Part shown: positions 384 through 38,335 of the stretch, piece by piece
Position numbering within the stretch: the stretch's first letter is position 1
Layout of the letters: each line of letters opens with the position of its first letter
From: Chrysochromulina parva
Taxonomy: Eukaryota > Haptophyta > Prymnesiales > Chrysochromulinaceae
Assembly: GCA_002887195.1 (NCBI GenBank)
Contig: PJAB01000097.1
Location: 1-43,315 of the forward strand
Direction of reading: 5' to 3'
DNA length: 43,315 nucleotides
Notes under the pieces: generated by a model
The model's database searches: none
What the model saw: only the letters and a program-made list of their open reading frames with translations
Told to the model about the DNA's origin: nothing
Translations under genes and position numbers: made by a program

Positions 384-1214
384 CTATGCATCTCCGCACG
401 GACAGGCTGACCAGCTCCGAGCGCATCCATCGCGCAACGGTGGCGGCCGACTCAGAACATCACGTATGATGGAAGGGTGCTCTTCTTCTTCGGCCATGTG
501 TGCGGCACGCTCGCGGTGAGTACGCCTGCCTCGTTGCTGCGCCTGTGGCGGTCGTCGGTTTGGAGGTGAGTAGTTGAGATTCAGCCGATGCAGGTCGCCA
601 ACGTGATCTGTATCGCCGCCCTGTTCTGGGAGCACATGCAGCCTCCATTGACCCCCGAGGCATAGCATGTGTCCCTGCAGCGTGAGCTCGGACGTACTGA
701 CGCGAAGCTCAAAGGAGGCGAGGCTCGGCCCATCTTGGCTTGCGCAATAGTCGAGCAGCTCGATGTTCAGCGCATCGCCGGTCCATGTGCCACGAATCTT
801 GGAATATGGGCCGCGCTGGCATTTGGCGGCTGGGGTCGCCAGCGCCGCGAGGTTGACGGGTTGGTCGAGCAGAAAGTGAGAATACACACCGGAAAGTGTG
901 CCATCCGAATGTAAGCGCATGCGGCCGCCGTGGCAGCCGATGGGAACGAGCGCCGTAGGCAGAGCGTCGAACGTGAAGAAGCCGGTTTCCACACTCAAAC
1001 CGGGCCAGCGACGTGGGAGCACACCGCGCCCTGCACTGCAGAGTGAGCGGCTCACGCACTTGGCAGTCATGCACTCGATCGTCGAGAGATGATCAAGAAT
1101 GTGGCTCAGGAGCTCGACAGGCAGTTGGCTCAGCCCGTTCACCTCGGACCAAGCGTTGTCAGCCCATGAAAATGTCAAGAGTGAACGCACAGGAAGAGGC
1201 AGTGGCAAAGGCAT
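384..1214 (-). CDS. F-box domain protein
   Basis: The product has 276 residues and starts at an ATG. Residues about 28-62 read LSQLPVELLSHILDHLS followed by a Cys/Val-Ser-Arg pattern, the usual F-box helix set that docks to Skp1 in SCF ubiquitin ligases. The rest (about 90-200) has alternating hydrophobic strands with a GRMRLHSDGTLSGV stretch and a later GTWTGDAL, suggesting a small beta-barrel substrate module; this part is inference. The last 70 residues are Arg/Pro-rich and low-complexity, so the true C-terminus could differ if an intron is present. The next gene upstream is on the same strand about 300 bp away. F-box is fairly sure; the substrate is unknown. Confidence 0.75.
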   Translation of the reverse strand: MPLPLPLPVRSLLTFSWADNAWSEVNGLSQLPVELLSHILDHLSTIECMTAKCVSRSLCSAGRGVLPRRWPGLSVETGFFTFDALPTALVPIGCHGGRMRLHSDGTLSGVYSHFLLDQPVNLAALATPAAKCQRGPYSKIRGTWTGDALNIELLDYCASQDGPSLASFELRVSTSELTLQGHMLCLGGQWRLHVLPEQGGDTDHVGDLHRLNLNYSPPNRRPPQAQQRGRRTHRERAAHMAEEEEHPSIIRDVLSRPPPLRDGCARSWSACPCGDA

Positions 1215-1514
1215 GCTTTGGACGCGGCGTGCACGTTTCAGAGCTAGCCTTCTAGGCCTACTTCACGACCTGTTAGAAGACCAACACTTTCTGCTCGTTG
1301 ATGTTCGGACATGGGAAGCTTGATGGCGCGCAAGCTTGATATCGCCCACAGATGATCTCGGATGACCTCGGATAACCTCTGATGACAACAATGTACGGAC
1401 ACATTCATACCGCTTTTGACGAGGCTGACGAAACTCAATCAAAACGAACGCAGTCTGACTGTAACCAACAACGTTTTCGAAAGTTTGCATTCCTACGTAT
1501 AAAGAGGCACACGC
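1215..1514. other. Intergenic with GATGACCTC-type short repeats
   Basis: No gene is seen here. Around 1347-1388 the plus strand carries about four imperfect copies of a 10-12 bp word of the form GAT(G/A)ACCTCGG. It closely resembles the minisatellite filling the intron at 7542-7760, which contains ACCTCTGATG on the minus strand. It may be an old intron remnant, or part of the F-box 5' region or the neighbouring gene's 3' UTR. Confidence 0.5.
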
Positions 1515-3416
1515 TCATGCAGCAAGCGGCCCCGTCACGACGTTGTTGATCCTGGCCACCATCCTCTCGACGACGCCGAGCAGCTGCAGCTTGCGGAGCA
1601 CCATCATCCTGAAGGCGGAGAGCACCTTGTCCCAAATCTGGACAGCCTCTTCCTCCGAGATGGTGCCGCTGCCATCGACGTCGAGTTCCTTGCACACCTC
1701 GCGCCAGTGGCTCATCATGTATCGGAGCGAGGGGGCTTCATCCCAGAGCGCGCCCAAGTTGGAGAGCAGAGCCTCGACGAGAAGCTTTCCCTCCTTCGCC
1801 TCGTCGCCCGCGGACTCGGTATAGTCGATTTCGCCATTGGGGCCAAGCTTGCCGCCACACTCCTTCTTGACGTCTTCGATGGCCATCGTGACCACGCCCT
1901 GCTCATCGTACCCCGCGAGCTGGGTGCACTGGTCGAGAGCCTTCATGTACTTGACGACGTACACGTCCTTGTCCGCCTCGGTCGCCGGCCCAACGCTCGA
2001 CACCTCGCGCACCTCGTCTGTGCCGTCGTCGAAGAAGATCGCGTGCGTCGTGTCCACGTACGTGGCGAGGTACAGGCGCTGGGGGTCGGAAACGGACGCC
2101 TCGCTCGGAATGCATCGGACCATGCAGAAGTCGCCCTTTTCAAGGAGTAGCGGCAGTGGATACACGCCTAGCTTATCCAGCTTGCTCGTCATGGCACGCA
2201 TCGTTTCGAGAAGGATCCGGTCCCAGATGGCGACCGCCTCCTTGGGCGTGATGGTGCCCGAGCCGTCCTCGTCCGCCTGAGCGCATGCGACTTGCCAGTT
2301 GGCCGCCACCGCCGCCGCCGCGCGGCTGTGCGTCTTGAGCGCCCCTATGTTCTCCATGAGCGCTGCGCAGAGCAGCTGACCCTCGCGCGCCTCGTCCCCA
2401 GCCTCTTGGGTATAGCTGATGGCCGCGTCCTTGCCGAGGGTGCCGCCCATGGCCGCGCGCACCTTATCGATCGCCTCGCGAACCAGCTGCTTCGAAGGGC
2501 GGCGAGCGATCGCCTTCAACTGCGCGACCGCCATCGTGTAGCGCAAGATGGCCTTTTCCTTGGCCGCTGCAGACGCGGGCGCGATCCCAACGGCATTCTC
2601 GACTTTGCCGTCGCCGTCGAGGAACACTACCTGGGTACTGCTCATGTACGTCGCGAGGCTCGGTCCTGGGTCGCTGCCGAGGGAGCTGACCCAGACCCCA
2701 AGGTCGCCGCCGGCGCCGGCGGGAAGAGCTGATAGGGGCTGCTTCGTCTGCGACGCGAGGCACAGGTCACCACGGTAAAGGCGCGCTGGCGCGCCGAGTA
2801 CGTCCAACTTGGCGGCGACGAATTCGCTGATTGTCATGGCCATCTGCGCCCAGATGGACGCCGCCTCCGCATCAGAGATGGTCCCCGAGCTGTCCATGTC
2901 ATGCTCCGCACACACCTCCTGCCAGTGCGAGCGCATCCAGTCGATGGCCGGGCTCTGCTTCGCGATGGCGCCAAAGTTTTGTAGGAGCGCCTCGAGGAAC
3001 AGTTGGCCCTCCATCATCTCCTCGCCGGCTGCCTGCGTGTACGAGATCATGCCATCATCTCCTAGTGTACCGCCCATCTGCGCCTTCACCTTCGCGATCG
3101 CCGCGGAAATGATCTCCTCCGGGTCGTTGGCCAGAAGCGTCTTGCACTCGGAGAGCGTGGAGCCGTACACGGCCTTGGCGGCTTCGCGATCGTCGCGGGT
3201 CGCCTCCGAGAGGGCAGCCACCTCCACCTCAGACTCGGAGCCGTCGTCAAAGAAGATGACCATCCGCTTCTTGAAGTCGACGACTGTGGCGAGGAAGTAC
3301 TTTGAGCCCTCACCGACGCGGCGCTCATCTTCTACCGGCAGCGCCATACACAGTTCGCCCGGCTCGAGCGCATGTGTGGGATTTTTCCTGGGCTTACCGA
3401 ACATGAGGCGCATCAT
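1515..3416 (-). CDS. Triple Tudor-like/EF-hand repeat protein
   Basis: About 633 residues from the first in-frame ATG; the frame stays open to a TTG at 3536, so an upstream exon is possible (a TTCTCACAG acceptor-like site lies just before the ATG). Three tandem modules of about 190 residues each hold (a) a small beta-barrel with the pattern YLAT(Y/V)VD...IFFDDG, similar to Tudor/agenet folds, (b) a helical block with GGxLGxxxxISYTQxAG, and (c) one canonical EF-hand loop: DMDSSGTISDAE, DEDGSGTITPKE and DVDGSGTISEEE. All three loops keep the calcium ligands at positions 1, 3, 5, 7, 9 and 12. The second module's barrel is the most degraded. Calcium binding is well supported; the partner and role are unknown. 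Confidence 0.8.
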   Translation of the reverse strand: MMRLMFGKPRKNPTHALEPGELCMALPVEDERRVGEGSKYFLATVVDFKKRMVIFFDDGSESEVEVAALSEATRDDREAAKAVYGSTLSECKTLLANDPEEIISAAIAKVKAQMGGTLGDDGMISYTQAAGEEMMEGQLFLEALLQNFGAIAKQSPAIDWMRSHWQEVCAEHDMDSSGTISDAEAASIWAQMAMTISEFVAAKLDVLGAPARLYRGDLCLASQTKQPLSALPAGAGGDLGVWVSSLGSDPGPSLATYMSSTQVVFLDGDGKVENAVGIAPASAAAKEKAILRYTMAVAQLKAIARRPSKQLVREAIDKVRAAMGGTLGKDAAISYTQEAGDEAREGQLLCAALMENIGALKTHSRAAAAVAANWQVACAQADEDGSGTITPKEAVAIWDRILLETMRAMTSKLDKLGVYPLPLLLEKGDFCMVRCIPSEASVSDPQRLYLATYVDTTHAIFFDDGTDEVREVSSVGPATEADKDVYVVKYMKALDQCTQLAGYDEQGVVTMAIEDVKKECGGKLGPNGEIDYTESAGDEAKEGKLLVEALLSNLGALWDEAPSLRYMMSHWREVCKELDVDGSGTISEEEAVQIWDKVLSAFRMMVLRKLQLLGVVERMVARINNVVTGPLAA

Positions 3417-3609
3417 CGTCGCTGTGAGAACTACTGCGCAGTGTTTGGTATCGCCGTCGTCCACGGTCAGCACGGTGAGCAAAGTTGCAGCTTTCTCGGG
3501 TTCACGAGGGCTCCGCCGAAAACGCTTTCGGGTCAAAAAGTACTTCAGACTTCGGAAGTCCCTGGAAACTCAGTTTCGTCAAGTTCACGCGCCCCTCCAA
3601 CTCTTCTCA

Positions 3610-3843
3610 CTAATGATGTCCACCGCCCGTGGGTGTGTCCTCTAGTTCCTGTTCTACGAGCGACACGTCGACATGCTCGTCGAGCATAACGGCCATGGTG
3701 GAGGCGTGAGCGTCGCTGTCCTTGGTGCTGCCGCTCGACGTGCAAGTGGGACGTCGTGCCGCCGGCGCACCTCGTCGAGGGAACTTGGGAGACCTGACGT
3801 TGCAGCACTGCGGCGAGAGGGGCGAGAGGGGCGAGAGTGGTGC

Positions 3844-3907
<64 letters not shown>

Positions 3908-4581
3908 GGCTGCTGCGTCTGCGGCTGAACCGGCAGAGGGGCAGCTGGCGACGGTCGCCCATCCGAGCGCCTGATCGGGCTGCAAGCCGGGCGCGCCCTG
4001 AGCGTGGGTAGGAGGAGCTCTTGAAACCATTCGTAGGCGCTGTAGAGCTCTTCGAGATTCGTGGGTTCGGGCGCAAGCCTGGCCACCGCGTCAGCGATTC
4101 CAGCCTGATCGGCGTCACAGTCGTCCTCCTGGCCGCGAGGGCCCAAGGAGGAGCGCAGCGCGTAAAGGCCTGTTGGCCCGCTCGTGGCAAGGCTGCCCGA
4201 AGGGTTGCGGCGGCATCTGGCATGGAGTGCCTCCTGGTCGCCACTCCCATCCTCGATGAGTGTGGGCAGGCTCGGCCGCCTGGAGGCGCGCGAGCGGCGC
4301 AGCGTGCTAGGGCTGCGCCGTTCGAAGGCAACCATCATGTCGCGAGCAGCCCGTAGCATCTCGTCGTTCCCGATCTCCAAGGCACGAGCCCGCAGTATAG
4401 GGGACCGTTTGCACCGTTGCATCGCTTCGGCGACAGGCCGCAGGGCAATGCGGCACTGGTGAAGGGCGACTGCGGCGATGATGACCATCATGACCGTCGT
4501 GCCTATCAATAAGTCTATAATCTCCTGCGACATAGCCGACGAGAAAGCCGCCGTCACGGTGGCGTCTTGAGCACCCGACAT
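3610..4581 (-). CDS. Single-pass membrane protein with polyQ tract
   Basis: 323 residues from the ATG at 4581; the longer frame starts at a TTG and was not used. One membrane segment lies at about residues 20-42 (EIIDLLIGTTVMMVIIAAVA), preceded by a short acidic N-terminus, which suggests a short lumenal or outside end and a long soluble tail. The tail has a basic Ser/Arg-rich part, a short helix (LEELYSAYEWFQELLLP), then a run of about 20 glutamines encoded by uninterrupted CAG, then a PLSPLSPLSP repeat. No catalytic domain is recognised. It is divergent from the Rieske gene at 4918. The frame is probably real given its consistent length and clear membrane segment, but the function is unknown. 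Confidence 0.6.
3847..3906 (+). repeat. (CTG)20 microsatellite, CAG on coding strand
   Basis: Twenty uninterrupted CTG units on the plus strand give a pure CAG-encoded polyglutamine run in the minus-strand membrane protein. Imperfect CTG/CGG units continue to about 3925. A pure tract is expected to be length-variable between strains. Confidence 0.95.
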
Positions 4582-4917
4582 TTCCAAGTAATTTTTGCTG
4601 CAAATGAGATGATCTCCCGATCTTCCTGCGAGGTTTCGGAAATCGTCAAAATTAATGGTCGCGCGACGTACGCGTTCACGTTCACGTTAATATGCCATCT
4701 CAGCAAGACGCACAGCCACAGGTCCCGTGGAGACACAACGTGGGGGGCGCAGAGTTGGTCGTGCGTCCACCCGTAATCCGTGGAAATATGATCCCACTTG
4801 CAGTTGTGAGTGAGTGAGAGAATCGCTCACGTCTCACCACTCTTTTAATATGATAGTAGTTTTGTGTGTTCTTGTCTTGACTTGACTTGACTTGACTTGA
4901 CTGTTCTTGGTTTCTCA
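4582..4917. promoter_or_regulatory. Divergent intergenic region, probable shared promoter
   Basis: This 336-bp gap separates the start codons of the polyQ membrane protein (minus) and the Rieske protein (plus). It is AT-richer than the flanks. It should hold both promoters; no TATA box or other core element is called with confidence. A pentamer array sits just before the Rieske start. Confidence 0.4.
4876..4900 (+). repeat. (CTTGA)5 pentamer repeat in Rieske leader
   Basis: Five perfect CTTGA units end 17 bp before the Rieske ATG at 4918, so the array probably lies in the 5' UTR or core promoter. Confidence 0.9.
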
Positions 4918-5490
4918 ATGCGATTTACTCGCCACGTGTGTTCCGTCGCTTCGCGATTGACACTGCTGGACGCGAGCGAAGCTAAGACGCTCGCGACGGG
5001 AACAGCTCGCCAGCTCACAGTGCGTGTGGCTAAGAACGACACACAAGTGCGGCTGCTTGACATATTTGTGTGTCGTGACCTCGAAGGCCGCCTGCGTGCC
5101 TTCGAAAACTATTGCCCACATGCCGGCGGCCCGCTCAACATGCTGCCCGACCGCTTCTTCACGCGTGATGGCACGGCACTATTATGCACGAGCCACGGCG
5201 CAAAGTTCTCGCCGACGAATGGCGAGTGCTTTCACGGGCCATGTGCTGGCAAGGCTTTGCACATGCTCGAGCTTGAGGAGGACGAGTCGGGTGCGATCGG
5301 TACATGCAATCGAGCGCTCGAATTGCTGTGCGAGAGCGGCGGTGGTGCTTTCATTTTGCGGGAGCGTCACGAGGCTGATGCTCAAGGGCCCCAAGTACAG
5401 CGACCCACATCGCCGCCACCAAGGCCAGCGCGGAGCCGGCGCCGAGCTAGCATACCGCACTCCGAGGGCACTCCGGAGCCTGCCAAGTGA
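4918..5490 (+). CDS. Small Rieske [2Fe-2S] domain protein
   Basis: 190 residues from the ATG at 4918; an upstream in-frame TTG was not used. The cluster ligands are clear: C66-P-H68 in NYCPHAGGPLN and C90-T-S-H93 in CTSHGAKFSPTNG, followed by a Cys-rich ECFHGPC segment typical of ferredoxin-type Rieske proteins. There is no catalytic oxygenase domain, so it is a stand-alone electron-transfer or regulatory Rieske protein, not an oxygenase alpha subunit. The last 45 residues are Pro/Arg-rich and probably disordered. No strong targeting signal is visible, although the basic first residues (MRFTRHVCSVASRL) could be a short mitochondrial presequence. Its partner is unknown. Confidence 0.85.
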   Translation: MRFTRHVCSVASRLTLLDASEAKTLATGTARQLTVRVAKNDTQVRLLDIFVCRDLEGRLRAFENYCPHAGGPLNMLPDRFFTRDGTALLCTSHGAKFSPTNGECFHGPCAGKALHMLELEEDESGAIGTCNRALELLCESGGGAFILRERHEADAQGPQVQRPTSPPPRPARSRRRASIPHSEGTPEPAK

Positions 5491-5902
5491 GTTGAGGACA
5501 AAGCACTTATTCACAGATTGTGCGAGCTTGCGAGGCCGCGCCCGAGGACGGGGAACACATCACAGTGCTCGGTCTGGCTTGCGACGTGTGCGCGGGCCCG
5601 GGCCCTCGTCCACACGATGCTACGTCGGGTCGGCACGCTCTTCTATCGTATGAACTTGACGAGTTCAGCCTCTTCGTGCAGATGACGCCCACTTGTACGG
5701 TGCCATTCTGGCTCTCTCTGTGTGTACACCGAAGCAAAAAATCCAATCTGCAATCATATCGTATGTGCGCGCTTTTTCAACTCAACTGATACATCCGGGA
5801 TGATCGATCAATGAATCATCCGGACCGCTTCAGACGTCGTCTCTACATGTACCACTCCACTTTCTCTTTCAAGTATCATGCGCGCGGCGTAGTACGTCAT
5901 AC
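5491..5902. other. Convergent 3' flanks, no gene seen
   Basis: This lies between the stop codons of the Rieske protein and the large coiled-coil gene. A plus-strand open frame through about 5520-5789 has no recognisable domain and is probably 3' UTR. Confidence 0.5.
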
Positions 5903-8900
5903 TCATAGCCATTCGCCGTCCCCTGTGGCCACCTCGGCCTTTGCCAGCCGCTCGGTGAGCTCCCGCCGCGCTGTCTCGAGCTCGTCGGCCAAGTCATAGT
6001 CCTCATCAGCGCAGGCGGCATCTATGGCTTCATCGAGTGCGCCCACGCGCGCCCGCATCGCCTGCACCTCCGCCGCGCTCACGCCAGCTGCCGCCGCGCT
6101 TTCGTCAGCTGCCATCGCGCCCGCAGCCGCGTCCACTCCAGATTGGGACGGTTCCGCATTTGTTTCCTCAGGCTTCGTCACGGAAGATAGGGACGGTTCC
6201 GCATTTGGTTCCTCAGGCTTCGTCACTGAAGATTCGGACGGCTCCGCATTTGGTTCCTCTGGCTTTGTCTCTAGCTCCGCCACTGGCTCCAGATGAGCCT
6301 CGAGCGCGGGCACGGCGGCGCTGCGCTCTGGATTCGCTTCCTGCAGCGCTCGTGCAACGGCGGCGCCCACGAGTGCCGAAGCCGTGGCAGCATCGGCAGC
6401 ATCGGCAGCATCGGCCACCGACGCATCGTCAGTCGACAGCAACGCCTGAGCCACCGCTGCCGCGACGACGCGCTCGGCTTCGGCGCTCGCCTCATCGGTG
6501 GACGTGGCCACCGTCGGCGCCTCGGCAGACAGCTCTACCTCCTCGTAGGCCTCGTCGTCGAGCGCCGTGTCGGGCGCTGGCTGCCATGCCTCAAGAGAGT
6601 CGTCCACTTCGGCCGCCGCGTCCCCGTCATCCCTATCGTCCCCGTCGGTTGCGTCAGTCGCATCGTCCCGTGGCTCTCTGGGCTCGTCGGCCTCCCCGTG
6701 CATGCAAGTGCTCACCACGGCTCGATGTGGCTCATGGGCCTCGCCTGCCTCCTCCTCCGCCACCACCACCTGGGCCTCCTGCTCGCCGTGCATGCAAGCG
6801 CTCACCACGGCGCCCGCCTCCTCCTCCACCACCTGGGCCTCCGGCTCGCCCACGCCCCCGTCCCCCGCCTTGGGCGCGCGCGCCGTCACGAGCGCCGCGC
6901 GCCACTCGGCGAGTGCGTCGAGGTGCGCTCGAAGCAGCGCTTGCTCGGCGCTCAGGACGGCGCCGGAGTCCGCCTCGCGACCGCCCTCGCCCTTGCCCTC
7001 GGCGAGTGCCTCGTCGAGCATCCGCCGGCCGATCCGTTGCTGCGCCGCCAGCAGCCTGCTCAGCCGCACGTCCGCCGCCGCGCGCTGCCGGCGTGCCTCT
7101 TCACGCGCCTCGGCCTCGGCCGCGCCAAGCACGAGAATGGACGTGTCATCCGCGAGCGTCTGTCGACGGAGAGCCTCTTGTCGTGCGGTCAGTGCTTCCT
7201 CCTCCGCCGCCATCGCCTTGAGCTCCACCGCCACCAGGCCCGCCAACTTGAACTCCCGAGCGGCCGCCGCGGCCCTCTTCCTCTCGACGAGCTCCGGCTG
7301 ACGCTCCGCGAGGCTCTTGAGTGCCTCTCGGACTGCCTCGAGCTCGGCCTTATGCCCAAGAGCGGCCGTGCGAACCGCACCGAGCGCCTCGCTCACGGCG
7401 GCGGCCTCCTCCTCCGTGGGCGCCAACCGAGCGCGGCTGGCCGCCGTCGCCTGCTCGCTCGCTCGAGAGTGCTCGCAGACCAGCCGCAGCAGCCTCGCCG
7501 CCGCGCGCCGCGTCTCGCGCTCGGCACGAAGGGCGACGTACCTGATGAGGGACGCAATCAGAAGGCCATCGGAGGTCATGAGGAGGGTCATCAGAGGCCA
7601 TCAGAAGGCCATCAGAGGTCATGAGGAGGGTCATCAGAGGCAATCAGAAGGCAATCAGAAGGCCATCAGAGGTCATGAGGAGGGTCATCAGAGGCAATCA
7701 GAAGGCCATCAGAGGTCATGAGGAGGGTCATCAGAGGCCATCCGCAGAGCTGCGACGCACCTCTCCCGCAGAGCACGAAGCTCGGCGGACTTGGCCGCCA
7801 CCTCCCCACGCGCGGCATGCCACGACGCGACACGCTCGCGCCGCTGGCGCGCGAGCTCCGCGCCGGCGTGCTCGAGAGCGCCCAGTTTCGTCAAGAGGGC
7901 GTCGCGACGCAGCCCGAGCTTCGCAAGGGGCTTCTCGAACGACGCGCGCACGGCCGTGAGCTTCTCGTCATGCCGAGCTACCTGCCGAGCGCACTCGGCC
8001 TCCTCCACGAGCGCCGCCGCGAGCATTGCACGCAGCTCCTCGACCTTAGCTTGCGCGGCCGTGTGCTTCACGAGCCAGCTCGCGCGCGCCTCGTCCTCGG
8101 GGGCGGCTGCCTCTCGTATCTGCCCCTCGATCGCCTCGGTCTCCGACGCAAGCTCCGCCTCGTCCTCCCTCAGACGCGCCGTGTCGAGGGCGAGCCGCTC
8201 GGCTTCGCCCTGGCACCATTCCGAGGCCGCCGCGCTGGCCTCGCGCGCCGCCTCACGCATGGCCGCCACCTGCGCCAGCTGCTCGTCGCGCGAGCGCACG
8301 AGCTGCAGCGCAGTGCCTTGAAGCTCCTCGAGGGCTGCTCCCGAGGCCGCGAGCAGCTCCAACCGGTACTCATGGAGCGCGGCGGTGGCGGAGGCGAGCC
8401 GCGCGTGCGCCGCGCCCAGCTCGGCGCGCGCCGTCCTGAGCGGCTCCTCGAGCGCCTCGGCCACTTCGAACTCGTCTTTGGCGGTCGCCTCGAGCTGCGC
8501 CGCCTCCATGCTGGCGACGCTCGCCTCGAGCTGGACCACCACGGCGGCCGCCTCCGTGCGCTCGCTCAGCACGCTCGGCGCCGCGTTGCGGAGCGTCTCG
8601 AGTGCTTCCACTGCGCTGGCATCGAGCGCCGTCGACGCGTCTAAGGAGCTGGCCGACGCTGCTTCGCTTGCGGCGGCGGTAGGGGCGGAGGCGGTGTGAG
8701 CGGCGGCGGCGGTGTGAGCGGCGGCGGCGGTGGGAGCGGCGGCGGTGTCGGGCGGCCCTACTGCCACGCTGTCTGGCGCTACTGCCGCGCTCTTCCCACA
8801 GGGCGTCTGCGACGGCTCGACAGCGCTTGCGACAGCGCTCGCGGGAGCGGCGGCAGAGAAGCCATCCCGATTGGGGGTGGCCGTTGGCACAGGCTGTATC

Positions 8901-34954: not shown

Positions 34955-37900
34955 ATGGCTGCGCCCGTCCCGCCCGTGCTCCATCCCGAGCTGGTGGCGG
35001 CTGGCTGGGCGATCGCGGGCCAGGACGACGCCGGCGAGTGGTACTTTGAGAATGACGCGCTCGACGTGACAGCGTACGAGGATGACCTACCCCCTCCAGG
35101 ATTGCTCCCGGCCGCCCCAGTGGAGGGAGAGCAACAGGAGCCAGGTGCGGCACCGGAGAGCGCGCCGGAGCCAGCGGCACCGGAGAACGCGCCGGATCTC
35201 GCGGACGACGCGTCGGCCGCGCAGACCGCAGGCGGTGACCCCAAAGAGGGCTTGGTTCACCCACAGAAGGCGCTGCCCCCCCTCGCCCCCATCGCGGGTG
35301 TGGGTCCTGTCGGGCTGGCACCCCTTGCAGTGGCGGGCGCTCTCGGGCTCGGGGCGACACTGCGAGCCGCGACAGCCTCGGCGCTGCCCGCCATTGGAGC
35401 GCCGCCAGCCATGCTGGCTGTTGCTGAGGAAGCGTTGGACTACTTCAGGCCGTATTCCACGAAAAAGATCAAACCAGAGCCGAAAACCGAAATGGAAAAT
35501 AAACCCATCATCGGACATTGCAAGATGTCGTCATGCAAGAAGATAATGAAGTACGTCTACCTCCCGGACGGGCTTATCCTCGGCCCTACTCGCGACAAAA
35601 TGAGCGCAGCCAAGATCTTCGAGTACATGCAAATCGACATGCCACAGCAAATCTTCTACTTGACGAGTGGCGACGCGACGCAGACGTGGCAAATTCGGCA
35701 GCCGGGAGCCTTCAACTTTGACATGGGCGGTAGCGCTATGGCGGCCGCGGCTGCGGCCGCGGCGGCGGCCGCTAACCCCGGATTAGCGACGGCTCCGCCG
35801 GAGGAGAAGACCAGAGAGATTCGGATGGCGCACTGGCGCCACGTGATGCGGCAGAAGCTCACGCGCGTGCTCACTGGCACGGCCAAATCGTCCCTCGAGG
35901 CTGGCGCGTATTTTTGCGTGGATGCGTCCGCGAGTGACGCCATCGGCCAGTACTTGGCTTTGGGCTGCACCAAGGAAAACACGATCCTCTCGATTGCGCA
36001 CGGGTTGGTGGGCGACCAGGACGCCGACCAACCCATCGGCTGGTGCGAGGGCGTGATGAAAGCGTTCGCGGACACCGAAGGGAATGAGGACATGGACAAG
36101 GAACTCGGTGTCAGCGTGGTCTTCAAGAAGGAGGGTGCTGAGGGGCTGATCGAGCTTGATGACGAGTGGAACGGCAACGATCGCCTCCTGTACTCGGTGA
36201 GCGAGCTCGCGGCGCGCTGCGCTGCGATGGGCGTCGAGGAGGAGTTCGGGGGATCTGAGGCGTACAAGTACCACCCGTCGACGGCGCCGACGCACTACTT
36301 TGTGTGCGAGACGTTGGCCGGTCGTAGGGTCGTCGAGGAGTTGATTTACAAGACCATCTCGGGCGGTGAGTTCATCATCAACGGCTCGTACGTCTCCGCG
36401 GCGCGGCGCGTGCATAGCGCCCTCAATCTGGAGAGACCCCTCTTCGTCTTTCAGCACACCGGCGGATGCGCCGACCTAACGGCCGTCATGCTCCAGCAGG
36501 TGACGGCGATCGAGAACTTGCACAAGAAGATCGAGGCCGACGCGATCAAGAGCGGGGTCAAGGACAAGGGGAAAAAGAGTCTCGAGGACCTGATGAACGA
36601 GAACTTGCCGTTCGATCCCTTCCTTTCTCTCGACCCCATGTATGTCGTCGATCGGCCAGCGCAGCTCGGATTGCCGAAGATCAAGTTCACGGGGCCTGTT
36701 GGCAACGTGTACGGCGGCAGGCAGCAGCCCGCGCTCATCGCGCAGGTCAATGCGATCTTCGCCAACTTCCCGAGCAGTGCAAGGGCTGAGACTCGGCTCC
36801 TCGTCGACCCCTTCTCCATGCGCGGCGAGGCGCTGCAGGACATGATCTCGCGCACGATGAGCGCGGGGGACTCGGGCAACAAGGATGAGCTCAATGGCGA
36901 TGCCGCCGACAAGAAGCGCCTGCATCTCGCGTGGGAGATGCACGGTGCTCTCAACTTCGCTGCCCAGAAGCAAGCGAAGCTCGCCCAGAACCTGCAGCTC
37001 TGCGTGCTCGTCCTTTCTTTTGGGACCGGCGCTATCTCACAGCTGCGGACCTCGATCGAATGGTTCTTTCCCTTTTTGGGAGAAGAGCTGGCACGCCAAA
37101 TGGCAGACGAGCAGCTGCAGATCCCAGCGGGCGGAGGTGAGGGCGAAATCGCGGGCGTGCCCGCTTTGCCGGACGCGAGCTGCGACGCTATGCCGGACTC
37201 GGGCCTGTGCCAGCTCACCAAGTACCTCTCCATTATCGTGCCCGCGCTCGTGACCGTCATCCTCACTGTCCAGTCGTACCTTGATCCGGACTCGCAGTGT
37301 ATCGTGCTCAAGAGCGGCGCCGCACGGATCGAGTCCCAAATCTATATGTTCCGCACGCGCACCGGGCCGTATGGGAAGGCCCCGGCCGTCAAGAACGACG
37401 ACGACGGCGACGGCAAGGCCGACGCTCCGATCTCGACTCGCGAAAAATTCGGCACGACGATCACGGGCATTTGGGACGGCGTATTGAGCTCCTCGGTGTC
37501 GGACCACTCGATGCCCCGCCGGATCAGCGGCCATGACCACCGCGTTGCTATCCGCGAAGAGTTCCAAGCGGCGCAGGACATGGTCGCCAAGTACATGCCT
37601 GGTGAGCTCGGTGAAGACGCAGACGGCGACGGCGTCGCCGACCTGAAGGCACTGAGCAGCAAGGCTACCAAGTCGAACCCGTCGGGGCACGAGTCGAAAT
37701 TCGGCTTCCAGCTACTCGTCAAGTACGCGCCGTTCCTGGCCAAGTACGCGCCGTTCCTGGCCAAGGCGGGGGTCAACAAGGTCATGCCGACGGCCACGCC
37801 CGACGACCAAGCAGGCGCGATCGAGACGGGCGCTGCCCCTGCCGAGCCCGAAGAGGACGCCCCGAAGAAGGAACCCGATGATGACTCGGGCCTCAGCCCG

Positions 37901-38335
37901 ATGCGGGCGGAGGACTACGTGAAATTCCGCATGTTGCCGAAGCTGATCGCGATGTCGAGGCTCTCGCCCGAGCAGGCTAAACAAAAGTCGGCCTTCAAGA
38001 TGCTCTCAATTGGACTCGCCGCGGGCTCCACGCTACTCGGCGCGCTCGGCATCAACGTTCCCGTGCCTCTCGTCGTCCAGTTCGCGTCGGCGCTCGCCGG
38101 ATGGGAGTCGTACAAGCAGATGAATATGTCACTCAAACTGACCAATTCGGCCGTTGGCAAGCTCGAGCGGCTCGTGCTCTGGTGGCAGTCGCTCTCGATG
38201 ATCGAGAAGCGGCGGCCCGACCGAAAAGACAAGCTCGTGATGACGACTGAGGACATCCTCTCGGGCTCTCTGGTCGAACTCGCGATCGCCAAGCAGATGG
38301 AATCCAAAGAGGAAGAGGAGCCCAAGAAGGAATGA
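34955..38335 (+). CDS. SLOG (TRPM-like LSDAT) protein with two SLATT-like 2TM modules
   Basis: 1126 residues, no intron, from the first ATG. The N-terminus has a WW-like half motif (GWAIAGQDDAGEWYFEN) and an Ala/Pro linker. Residues about 215-520 follow the order of the TRPM homology (LSDAT/SLOG) domain: strand FYLTSG, a helix then LEAGAYFCVDASASDAIGQY, TILSIAHGLV, THYFVCETLAGRR and PLFVFQHTGGCADLTAVML. A first 2TM unit (helices about 680-697 and 757-776) ends with SGAARIESQIYMFRTRTGPY, the amphipathic helix typical of DUF4231/SLATT. Two DxDGDGxAD loops (about 816 and 889) look calcium-binding. A second 2TM unit lies at about 1016-1051. In bacteria SLOG senses or makes nucleotide signals and SLATT forms pores. 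No TRPM channel domain is present. Function here is inferred. Confidence 0.75.
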   Translation: MAAPVPPVLHPELVAAGWAIAGQDDAGEWYFENDALDVTAYEDDLPPPGLLPAAPVEGEQQEPGAAPESAPEPAAPENAPDLADDASAAQTAGGDPKEGLVHPQKALPPLAPIAGVGPVGLAPLAVAGALGLGATLRAATASALPAIGAPPAMLAVAEEALDYFRPYSTKKIKPEPKTEMENKPIIGHCKMSSCKKIMKYVYLPDGLILGPTRDKMSAAKIFEYMQIDMPQQIFYLTSGDATQTWQIRQPGAFNFDMGGSAMAAAAAAAAAAANPGLATAPPEEKTREIRMAHWRHVMRQKLTRVLTGTAKSSLEAGAYFCVDASASDAIGQYLALGCTKENTILSIAHGLVGDQDADQPIGWCEGVMKAFADTEGNEDMDKELGVSVVFKKEGAEGLIELDDEWNGNDRLLYSVSELAARCAAMGVEEEFGGSEAYKYHPSTAPTHYFVCETLAGRRVVEELIYKTISGGEFIINGSYVSAARRVHSALNLERPLFVFQHTGGCADLTAVMLQQVTAIENLHKKIEADAIKSGVKDKGKKSLEDLMNENLPFDPFLSLDPMYVVDRPAQLGLPKIKFTGPVGNVYGGRQQPALIAQVNAIFANFPSSARAETRLLVDPFSMRGEALQDMISRTMSAGDSGNKDELNGDAADKKRLHLAWEMHGALNFAAQKQAKLAQNLQLCVLVLSFGTGAISQLRTSIEWFFPFLGEELARQMADEQLQIPAGGGEGEIAGVPALPDASCDAMPDSGLCQLTKYLSIIVPALVTVILTVQSYLDPDSQCIVLKSGAARIESQIYMFRTRTGPYGKAPAVKNDDDGDGKADAPISTREKFGTTITGIWDGVLSSSVSDHSMPRRISGHDHRVAIREEFQAAQDMVAKYMPGELGEDADGDGVADLKALSSKATKSNPSGHESKFGFQLLVKYAPFLAKYAPFLAKAGVNKVMPTATPDDQAGAIETGAAPAEPEEDAPKKEPDDDSGLSPMRAEDYVKFRMLPKLIAMSRLSPEQAKQKSAFKMLSIGLAAGSTLLGALGINVPVPLVVQFASALAGWESYKQMNMSLKLTNSAVGKLERLVLWWQSLSMIEKRRPDRKDKLVMTTEDILSGSLVELAIAKQMESKEEEEPKKE
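37721..37762 (+). repeat. Perfect 21-bp in-frame duplication
   Basis: Two adjacent identical 21-bp units encode KYAPFLA twice just before the second membrane module of the SLOG/SLATT protein. Confidence 0.95.

Follow-up and report, generated by a model that had tools for sequence, protein, structure and literature searches.

The gene at 34955..38335 on the plus strand of contig PJAB01000097.1 from the alga Chrysochromulina parva appears to encode a single-chain haptophyte membrane protein in which a SLOG sensor of the TRPM MHR1/2 type is followed by two SLATT modules. Its most likely working, to which we give a probability of about 0.55, is nucleotide-triggered membrane permeabilisation. The whole contig of 43,315 nucleotides is the window analysed here; it is contig C97 of the C. 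tobinii genome (45 Mb, 2199 contigs) in which all own-genome searches were made. The partnership of SLOG and SLATT domains is a known theme in bacteria, where Burroughs and Aravind reportedly described them in 2015 as partners in conflict systems, and what would be new among the literature searched is the single-chain, multi-gene eukaryotic form. No such SLOG-SLATT-SLATT family in an alga or other eukaryote was found among the matches listed, which covered few subscription papers.

The reading frame extends over 1126 amino acids (aa) from the ATG at 34955 to the stop codon at 38333-38335 without an internal stop, and runs through a WW-like start, the SLOG domain, SLATT module 1, a linker and SLATT module 2. 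We take it to be coding because full-length and partial homologues exist: one, of 1128 aa and from source jgi, shares 97% identity with the chain from end to end, and two others are 52% identical over 83% and 41% identical over 63% of the chain. Since the protein searches scored only the approximately 8000 candidates with the most shared words, homologue counts are lower bounds; most homologues come from the sources jgi, ena and lgn. The sequences fall into family A, that of this protein (six sequences, this one included), and family B, that of the homologue P0008 (17 proteins, some cut short).

SLATT modules and sensor domain

Module 1 is a DUF4231-type hairpin of two transmembrane helices (2TM; residues 657-808, 36923..37378) and module 2 a SLATT_1-type 2TM hairpin (residues 985-1105, 37907..38269). 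The chain matches one curated SLATT model over its cut-off, the NCBIfam SLATT_1 model, at 42.2 bits against a cut-off of 41, with its best stretch at residues 996-1103 and two stretches at the lax limit of E<=10. Both Pfam matches are sub-threshold, DUF4231 at residues 672-808 (E 0.0014, 19.4 bits, cut-off 24.7) and SLATT_1 at residues 1013-1103 (E 0.0017, 18.8 bits, cut-off 26.3); the homologue P0022 exceeds the cut-off for both. The support for module 1 is thus its Pfam match together with the profile comparison with cyanobacterial tandem proteins described below, in which module 2 also finds its counterpart. The first-pass annotation had proposed two SLATT-like modules, the first of them ending in the amphipathic IESQIYMFRTRTGPY helix after TM2 (residues 792-806, 37328..37372), and both proposals are borne out. 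The motif [IT][YW]x[FYL]R, which marks this helix, is present in 24 of 24 of the collected sequences (P0001-P0024, with this chain and its public gene model included), in all six own-genome paralogue frames (two of which are near-copies of collected sequences) and in all three cyanobacterial tandem proteins. The predicted structure of P0008 contains paired helices at residues 513-584/615-637 and 812-858/861-880, consistent with two 2TM hairpins. In a hydropathy scan, TM2 is the helix of module 1 that is flagged in this chain, TM1 being flagged in P0004-P0007 but not here; module 2 and a further stretch at residues 109-136 are flagged as well. The loop between TM1 and TM2 contains a cysteine pair, C743-x8-C752 (37181..37210), and the pattern C-x6..12-C[QE] recurs there in 6/6 family-A sequences tested, with C-x7-C in the C. 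tobinii paralogue C1380. The pair suggests that this loop is lumenal or outer, which would place the SLOG sensor probably on the cytosolic side.

The SLOG / TRPM MHR1/2-type domain occupies residues 180-650 (35492..36904). This part of the chain aligns to residues 90-513 of P0008, whose predicted model is Rossmann-like, of the LSDAT type, and matches the TRPM MHR1/2 fold. Profile comparisons, for which each P value refers to a single comparison and column shuffles served as controls, connect the two families over the sensor (score 51.7, P 5.4e-6, 318 columns; none of 60 shuffles as good). Against the six LSDAT_euk proteins of the same genome, family A scored 38.1 and family B 35.5, each ahead of all 60 shuffles, and the two families together scored 51.1 against a joint LSDAT profile, a value reached by none of 25 shuffles. 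Family B alone also matched LSDAT_prok better than all 25 shuffles (P 0.03); the LSDAT_prok alignment used here represents 20 of 25 loci, the five omitted lacking the motif by which frames were picked. In these comparisons most of the matched region lies in the second half of LSDAT; the first half of the combined A and B profile scored 27.9 against LSDAT_euk (P 0.005; shuffle maximum 16.0). Two homologues have sub-threshold matches to LD_cluster2 / LSDAT_prok (E 0.036-0.16), and a search of the own genome for LD_cluster2 gave no match, the control being equally silent. Within the domain, all six family-A sequences share GEFIINGS and QHxGGCADL without change, and the N-G and G-G within these motifs, N476-G477 and G503-G504 of this chain, are invariant over all 23 sequences of both families, which suggests a retained pocket.

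The chain (P0001) matches eight loci in C. tobinii. The sensor part is kept in six of them, on contigs C97, C549, C581 (its first part in another frame), C2011, C3 and C1471; the locus on C340 is a fragment. The C1471 locus encodes a divergent LSDAT-like part followed by DUF4231 and SLATT_1, both over cut-off, in two reading frames, which may reflect an intron or a break. Only in the comparison of its sensor part with the joint LSDAT profile (P 5e-4) did none of 25 shuffles do as well; shuffles reached its score in 5/25 cases against LSDAT_euk, 1/25 against LSDAT_prok, 1/25 against family A, 2/25 against family B and 1/25 against both families. No plasmid relatives were found by tblastn for this chain or the C1471 frame. 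Frame 460-7254 of the C3 locus (L029) encodes a larger member, of 2265 aa, whose sensor and tandem SLATT are preceded by a long additional N-terminal region. Genome-wide, LSDAT_euk has 11 matches on 8 contigs, and one of the proteins concerned, on C2076, combines LSDAT_euk with TRPM2-like and Ion_trans families. As a separate observation, a 1589-aa frame on C161 joins LSDAT_euk to a NUDIX domain, reminiscent of the NUDT9-H of TRPM2.

Sensor and SLATT genes as neighbours in cyanobacteria

Of 386 cyanobacterial genomes searched, 28 gave LSDAT_prok matches, located in frames of 228-319 aa; DUF4231 matched in 56 and SLATT_1 in 66 at E<=1e-3. A SLATT gene lies on the same strand within 1.5 kb at 18 of the 29 LSDAT_prok loci, downstream in 17 and upstream in one (in genome G061, where it is shared with a second LSDAT_prok gene); any SLATT gene within 5 kb was seen at 21/29 loci and none at the other 8/29. 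In three genomes (G361, G283 and G347) LSDAT_prok has as its neighbour a single gene (345-357 aa) that encodes a tandem of DUF4231 and SLATT_1, both over the Pfam cut-off, so that an LSDAT-type sensor, DUF4231 and SLATT_1 follow one another in the same order in one chain in the alga and in adjacent genes in these bacteria. Within the order of G347 the tandem gene is present in 2 of 38 genomes, one of them G347 itself.

Aligned to its bacterial counterpart, the algal tandem gave P 5e-16 (314 columns), a comparison made without a shuffle control. For family A, module 1 matched bacterial module 1 (P 3e-9) and module 2 matched bacterial module 2 (P 2e-12), and the crossed pairs stayed within 15 shuffles. 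Family B, its modules taken from six of eight sequences (of 17; two had no split motif), gave P 1.5e-4 and 6e-9 for the matched pairs of modules 1 and 2, and its module 1 against bacterial module 2 came out slightly over its shuffles (22.7 vs 20.5). For the C1471 protein, module 2 against bacterial module 1 equalled the shuffles and module 1 against bacterial module 1 was weak (P 0.013). Because the modules match one-to-one, the algal chain would, as judged from sequence, correspond to a fusion of the two bacterial genes with their order kept, and the comparison argues for common descent of the algal and bacterial SLATT tandem. The earlier suggestion of a link to bacterial SLOG/SLATT systems is therefore upheld by these gene pairs. 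The algal protein resembles them in sensor class, in the order of DUF4231 before SLATT_1 and module by module. In the loci read, however, the bacterial LSDAT_prok and SLATT are separate genes, whereas the alga has a single chain, in a eukaryotic host and with eight related loci, and the algal chain differs further in its WW-like start, its cysteine-bearing loop and its long linkers.

A TIR_2 gene adjoins the tandem SLATT gene in G361 and G347, and in G283 the contig ends; no TIR gene was seen by eye in the 3-3.5 kb around three single-SLATT loci (G192, G377 and G134). In a PADLOC search at E<=0.01, only the two TIR genes matched, with none for this chain, P0008, LSDAT_prok or the tandem SLATT. 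The gene row LSDAT_prok, tandem DUF4231/SLATT_1 and TIR_2 of G361 and G347 (loci L105 and L107) can be noted as a candidate defence system in its own right. Among prokaryotic contigs searched with the family-B profile, one of 91 pattern matches was confirmed (L039), and it was excluded as a bacterial relative because the contig looks chimeric: it belongs to a metagenome-assembled genome labelled 'Synechococcus' and, by eye, turns into algal SLATT sequence from approximately base 4680, probably a chimeric assembly.

Proposed mode of action and alternative explanations

We favour nucleotide-triggered permeabilisation because of the literature on SLOG and SLATT and the bacterial operon context; ligand, gating, pore, topology and biological role are all put forward here as inferences. 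An NAD-derived nucleotide of the ADP-ribose (ADPR) or cyclic ADP-ribose class (cADPR), such as a TIR protein might produce, would bind the SLOG domain, and the change might be transmitted along the long helix joining SLOG to TM1. The SLATT hairpins would then oligomerise or rearrange so that the membrane turns leaky to ions, and this leak could serve a signalling or a cell-death response. According to PMC10022894, the SLOG domain of Thoeris ThsA senses cADPR isomers made by TIR, and PMC13143021 has ADPR bound by MHR1/2 of zebrafish TRPM2. SLATT has been predicted to act as a membrane effector under the control of ADPr derivatives (PMC9503650) and, in conflict systems, to form pores (PMC7159879). 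Thoeris, with its TIR protein ThsB and SIR2-SLOG protein ThsA, may follow the same logic of a TIR product sensed by SLOG, but it has SIR2 where the algal chain has a membrane module. PMC12632851 states that DRT10 defence needs a SLATT protein; that system differs in having a reverse transcriptase and a non-coding RNA (ncRNA) as partners, and cDNA has been proposed as what acts on SLATT in it. TRPM channels, which share LSDAT_euk / MHR1-2, are 6TM channels, whereas the algal chain has 2+2 TM SLATT hairpins, and no Ion_trans or TRPM2-like family matched it in Pfam at E<=10. The previously noted combination of sensor and two modules in one eukaryotic chain with no TRP channel is accordingly supported, its SLOG part through the paralogue. 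That architecture, called unusual in the same annotation, is indeed so, but it is not isolated: its parts are neighbouring genes in cyanobacteria, and LSDAT with TRPM2-like and Ion_trans exists as a separate protein in the alga.

Several observations weigh against our reading. This chain has no Pfam SLOG match at E<=10, and by eye the glycine motifs of classical SLOG appear degenerate. Its SLOG fold is accepted by homology to the paralogue because its own structure model failed (pLDDT 33.8, from a 6-row alignment), and that paralogue is only 18% identical to it overall. The TRPM-homology claim of the first-pass annotation therefore stands for the paralogue's fold and lacks a curated SLOG match in this chain. 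Neither the single sequence nor a 23-row profile found a TRPM among the PDB sequences. Shuffles reached the scores of family A alone against LSDAT_prok (2/25), of the first half of the sensor against LSDAT_prok (1/25) and of family B alone against joint LSDAT (1/25, equalled). The paralogue C1380 (L032) has the WW-like start and both SLATT modules and has lost SLOG, a natural sensor-less version. The TIR neighbourhood comprises two readable loci only. TIR_2 matches 17 places in C. tobinii, merely co-present, none of them on the contig of our gene, and no TIR gene was among its four neighbouring frames scanned, one of which gave no match.

Some of these points would suit a possible, if doubtful, alternative, namely that SLOG keeps its fold for structure or protein interaction but has lost nucleotide binding; the protein would then act constitutively as a membrane scaffold or in trafficking and dock through its WW-like start. 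The missing Pfam match, the degenerate glycine motifs and the SLOG-less C1380 all agree with this, and so does the WW domain of the homologue P0011 (residues 7-35, E 2.6e-9). However, the invariance of GEFIINGS and QHxGGCADL in family A, and of N-G and G-G over 23 sequences, speaks against this reading, as does the retention of the SLOG part at six of the eight C. tobinii loci. An ordinary ligand-gated ion channel that works in a TRPM2-like manner through a 2+2 TM SLATT pore, for example in calcium signalling, and is no death effector, seems to us unlikely. Eight related loci in one alga do fit signalling more easily than suicide, and the fold match is to channel sensors, but the same alga already has the C2076 protein for that role, and two of the bacterial kin adjoin TIR genes.

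Calcium control through two DxDGDGxAD loops (residues 815-823, 37397..37423; residues 888-896, 37616..37642), which the first-pass annotation had raised, is now very improbable. Both loops are present, but they are unconserved, the first occurring in 3/6 family-A sequences (this one included), the second in 2/4 family-A sequences that reach there, and neither in any of 17 family-B sequences; no EF-hand family matches this chain in Pfam at E<=10. We give equally little credence to a viral or mobile origin of the gene. SLATT genes are common in algal polinton-like viruses (reported for those of cryptophytes, n = 868, in PMC12220804), so that SLATT occurs in an algal setting there too, and giant-virus proteins named SLATT are among the weak fold matches (E 0.67 and above). 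Nevertheless, no relative of the algal chain came up when viral contigs were scanned twice, each time with a pair of short peptide patterns, no viral fold match was seen at E<=1e-3, and the gene lies near ribosomal protein S7 and TauE genes.

A bolder extension of nucleotide-triggered permeabilisation, which we regard as slightly more doubtful still than a non-binding SLOG, is that these proteins form a new eukaryotic nucleotide-gated class. In such a class a TRPM-type sensor would open a SLATT pore rather than a 6TM channel, TIR-made NAD derivatives would activate it in antiviral or stress-induced algal cell death, and it would descend from the same bacterial sensor/pore operons that were possibly ancestral to the animal TRPM sensor. 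If our main reading is right, a bacterial sensor/effector pair would have been fused and multiplied into a gene family, and the host alga has a TRPM-like channel as well. One protein would then bear on two questions, SLATT as a ligand-gated pore and the origin of the TRPM sensor, and would be a possible executioner for this alga's TIR proteins. Haptophytes are bloom-forming algae, and viruses contribute to the end of their blooms.

Gene model, locus and minor features

The public model of the same gene, Ctob_004962 of Chrysochromulina tobinii (P0003), has 783 aa and omits residues 64-277 and 415-515 of the 1126-aa chain. Neither piece contains a stop or shifts the frame, and residues 415-515 carry the best-conserved end of SLOG (PTHY, GEFIING, GGCADL), which is present in P0002 and P0004-P0007; the two omissions are probably mispredicted (false) introns. 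Part of the sensor is thereby dropped from the public model, which may explain why the gene went unnamed. The four neighbouring frames scanned comprise ribosomal protein S7, a TauE permease, a gene of the triose-phosphate-transporter (TPT) family and the one with no match, and from the three identified neighbours together with Ctob_004962 the locus is taken as haptophyte nuclear.

The WW-like start (residues 10-45, 34982..35089) is a weak assignment: it is modelled as two strands with block pLDDT 51-72 in the otherwise failed structure model, and no Pfam WW match was obtained in this chain at E<=1. Between this start and the sensor, the stretch at residues 109-136 is hydrophobic and rich in Ala and Gly, passes a simple hydropathy threshold and could be either a membrane segment or low-complexity sequence.

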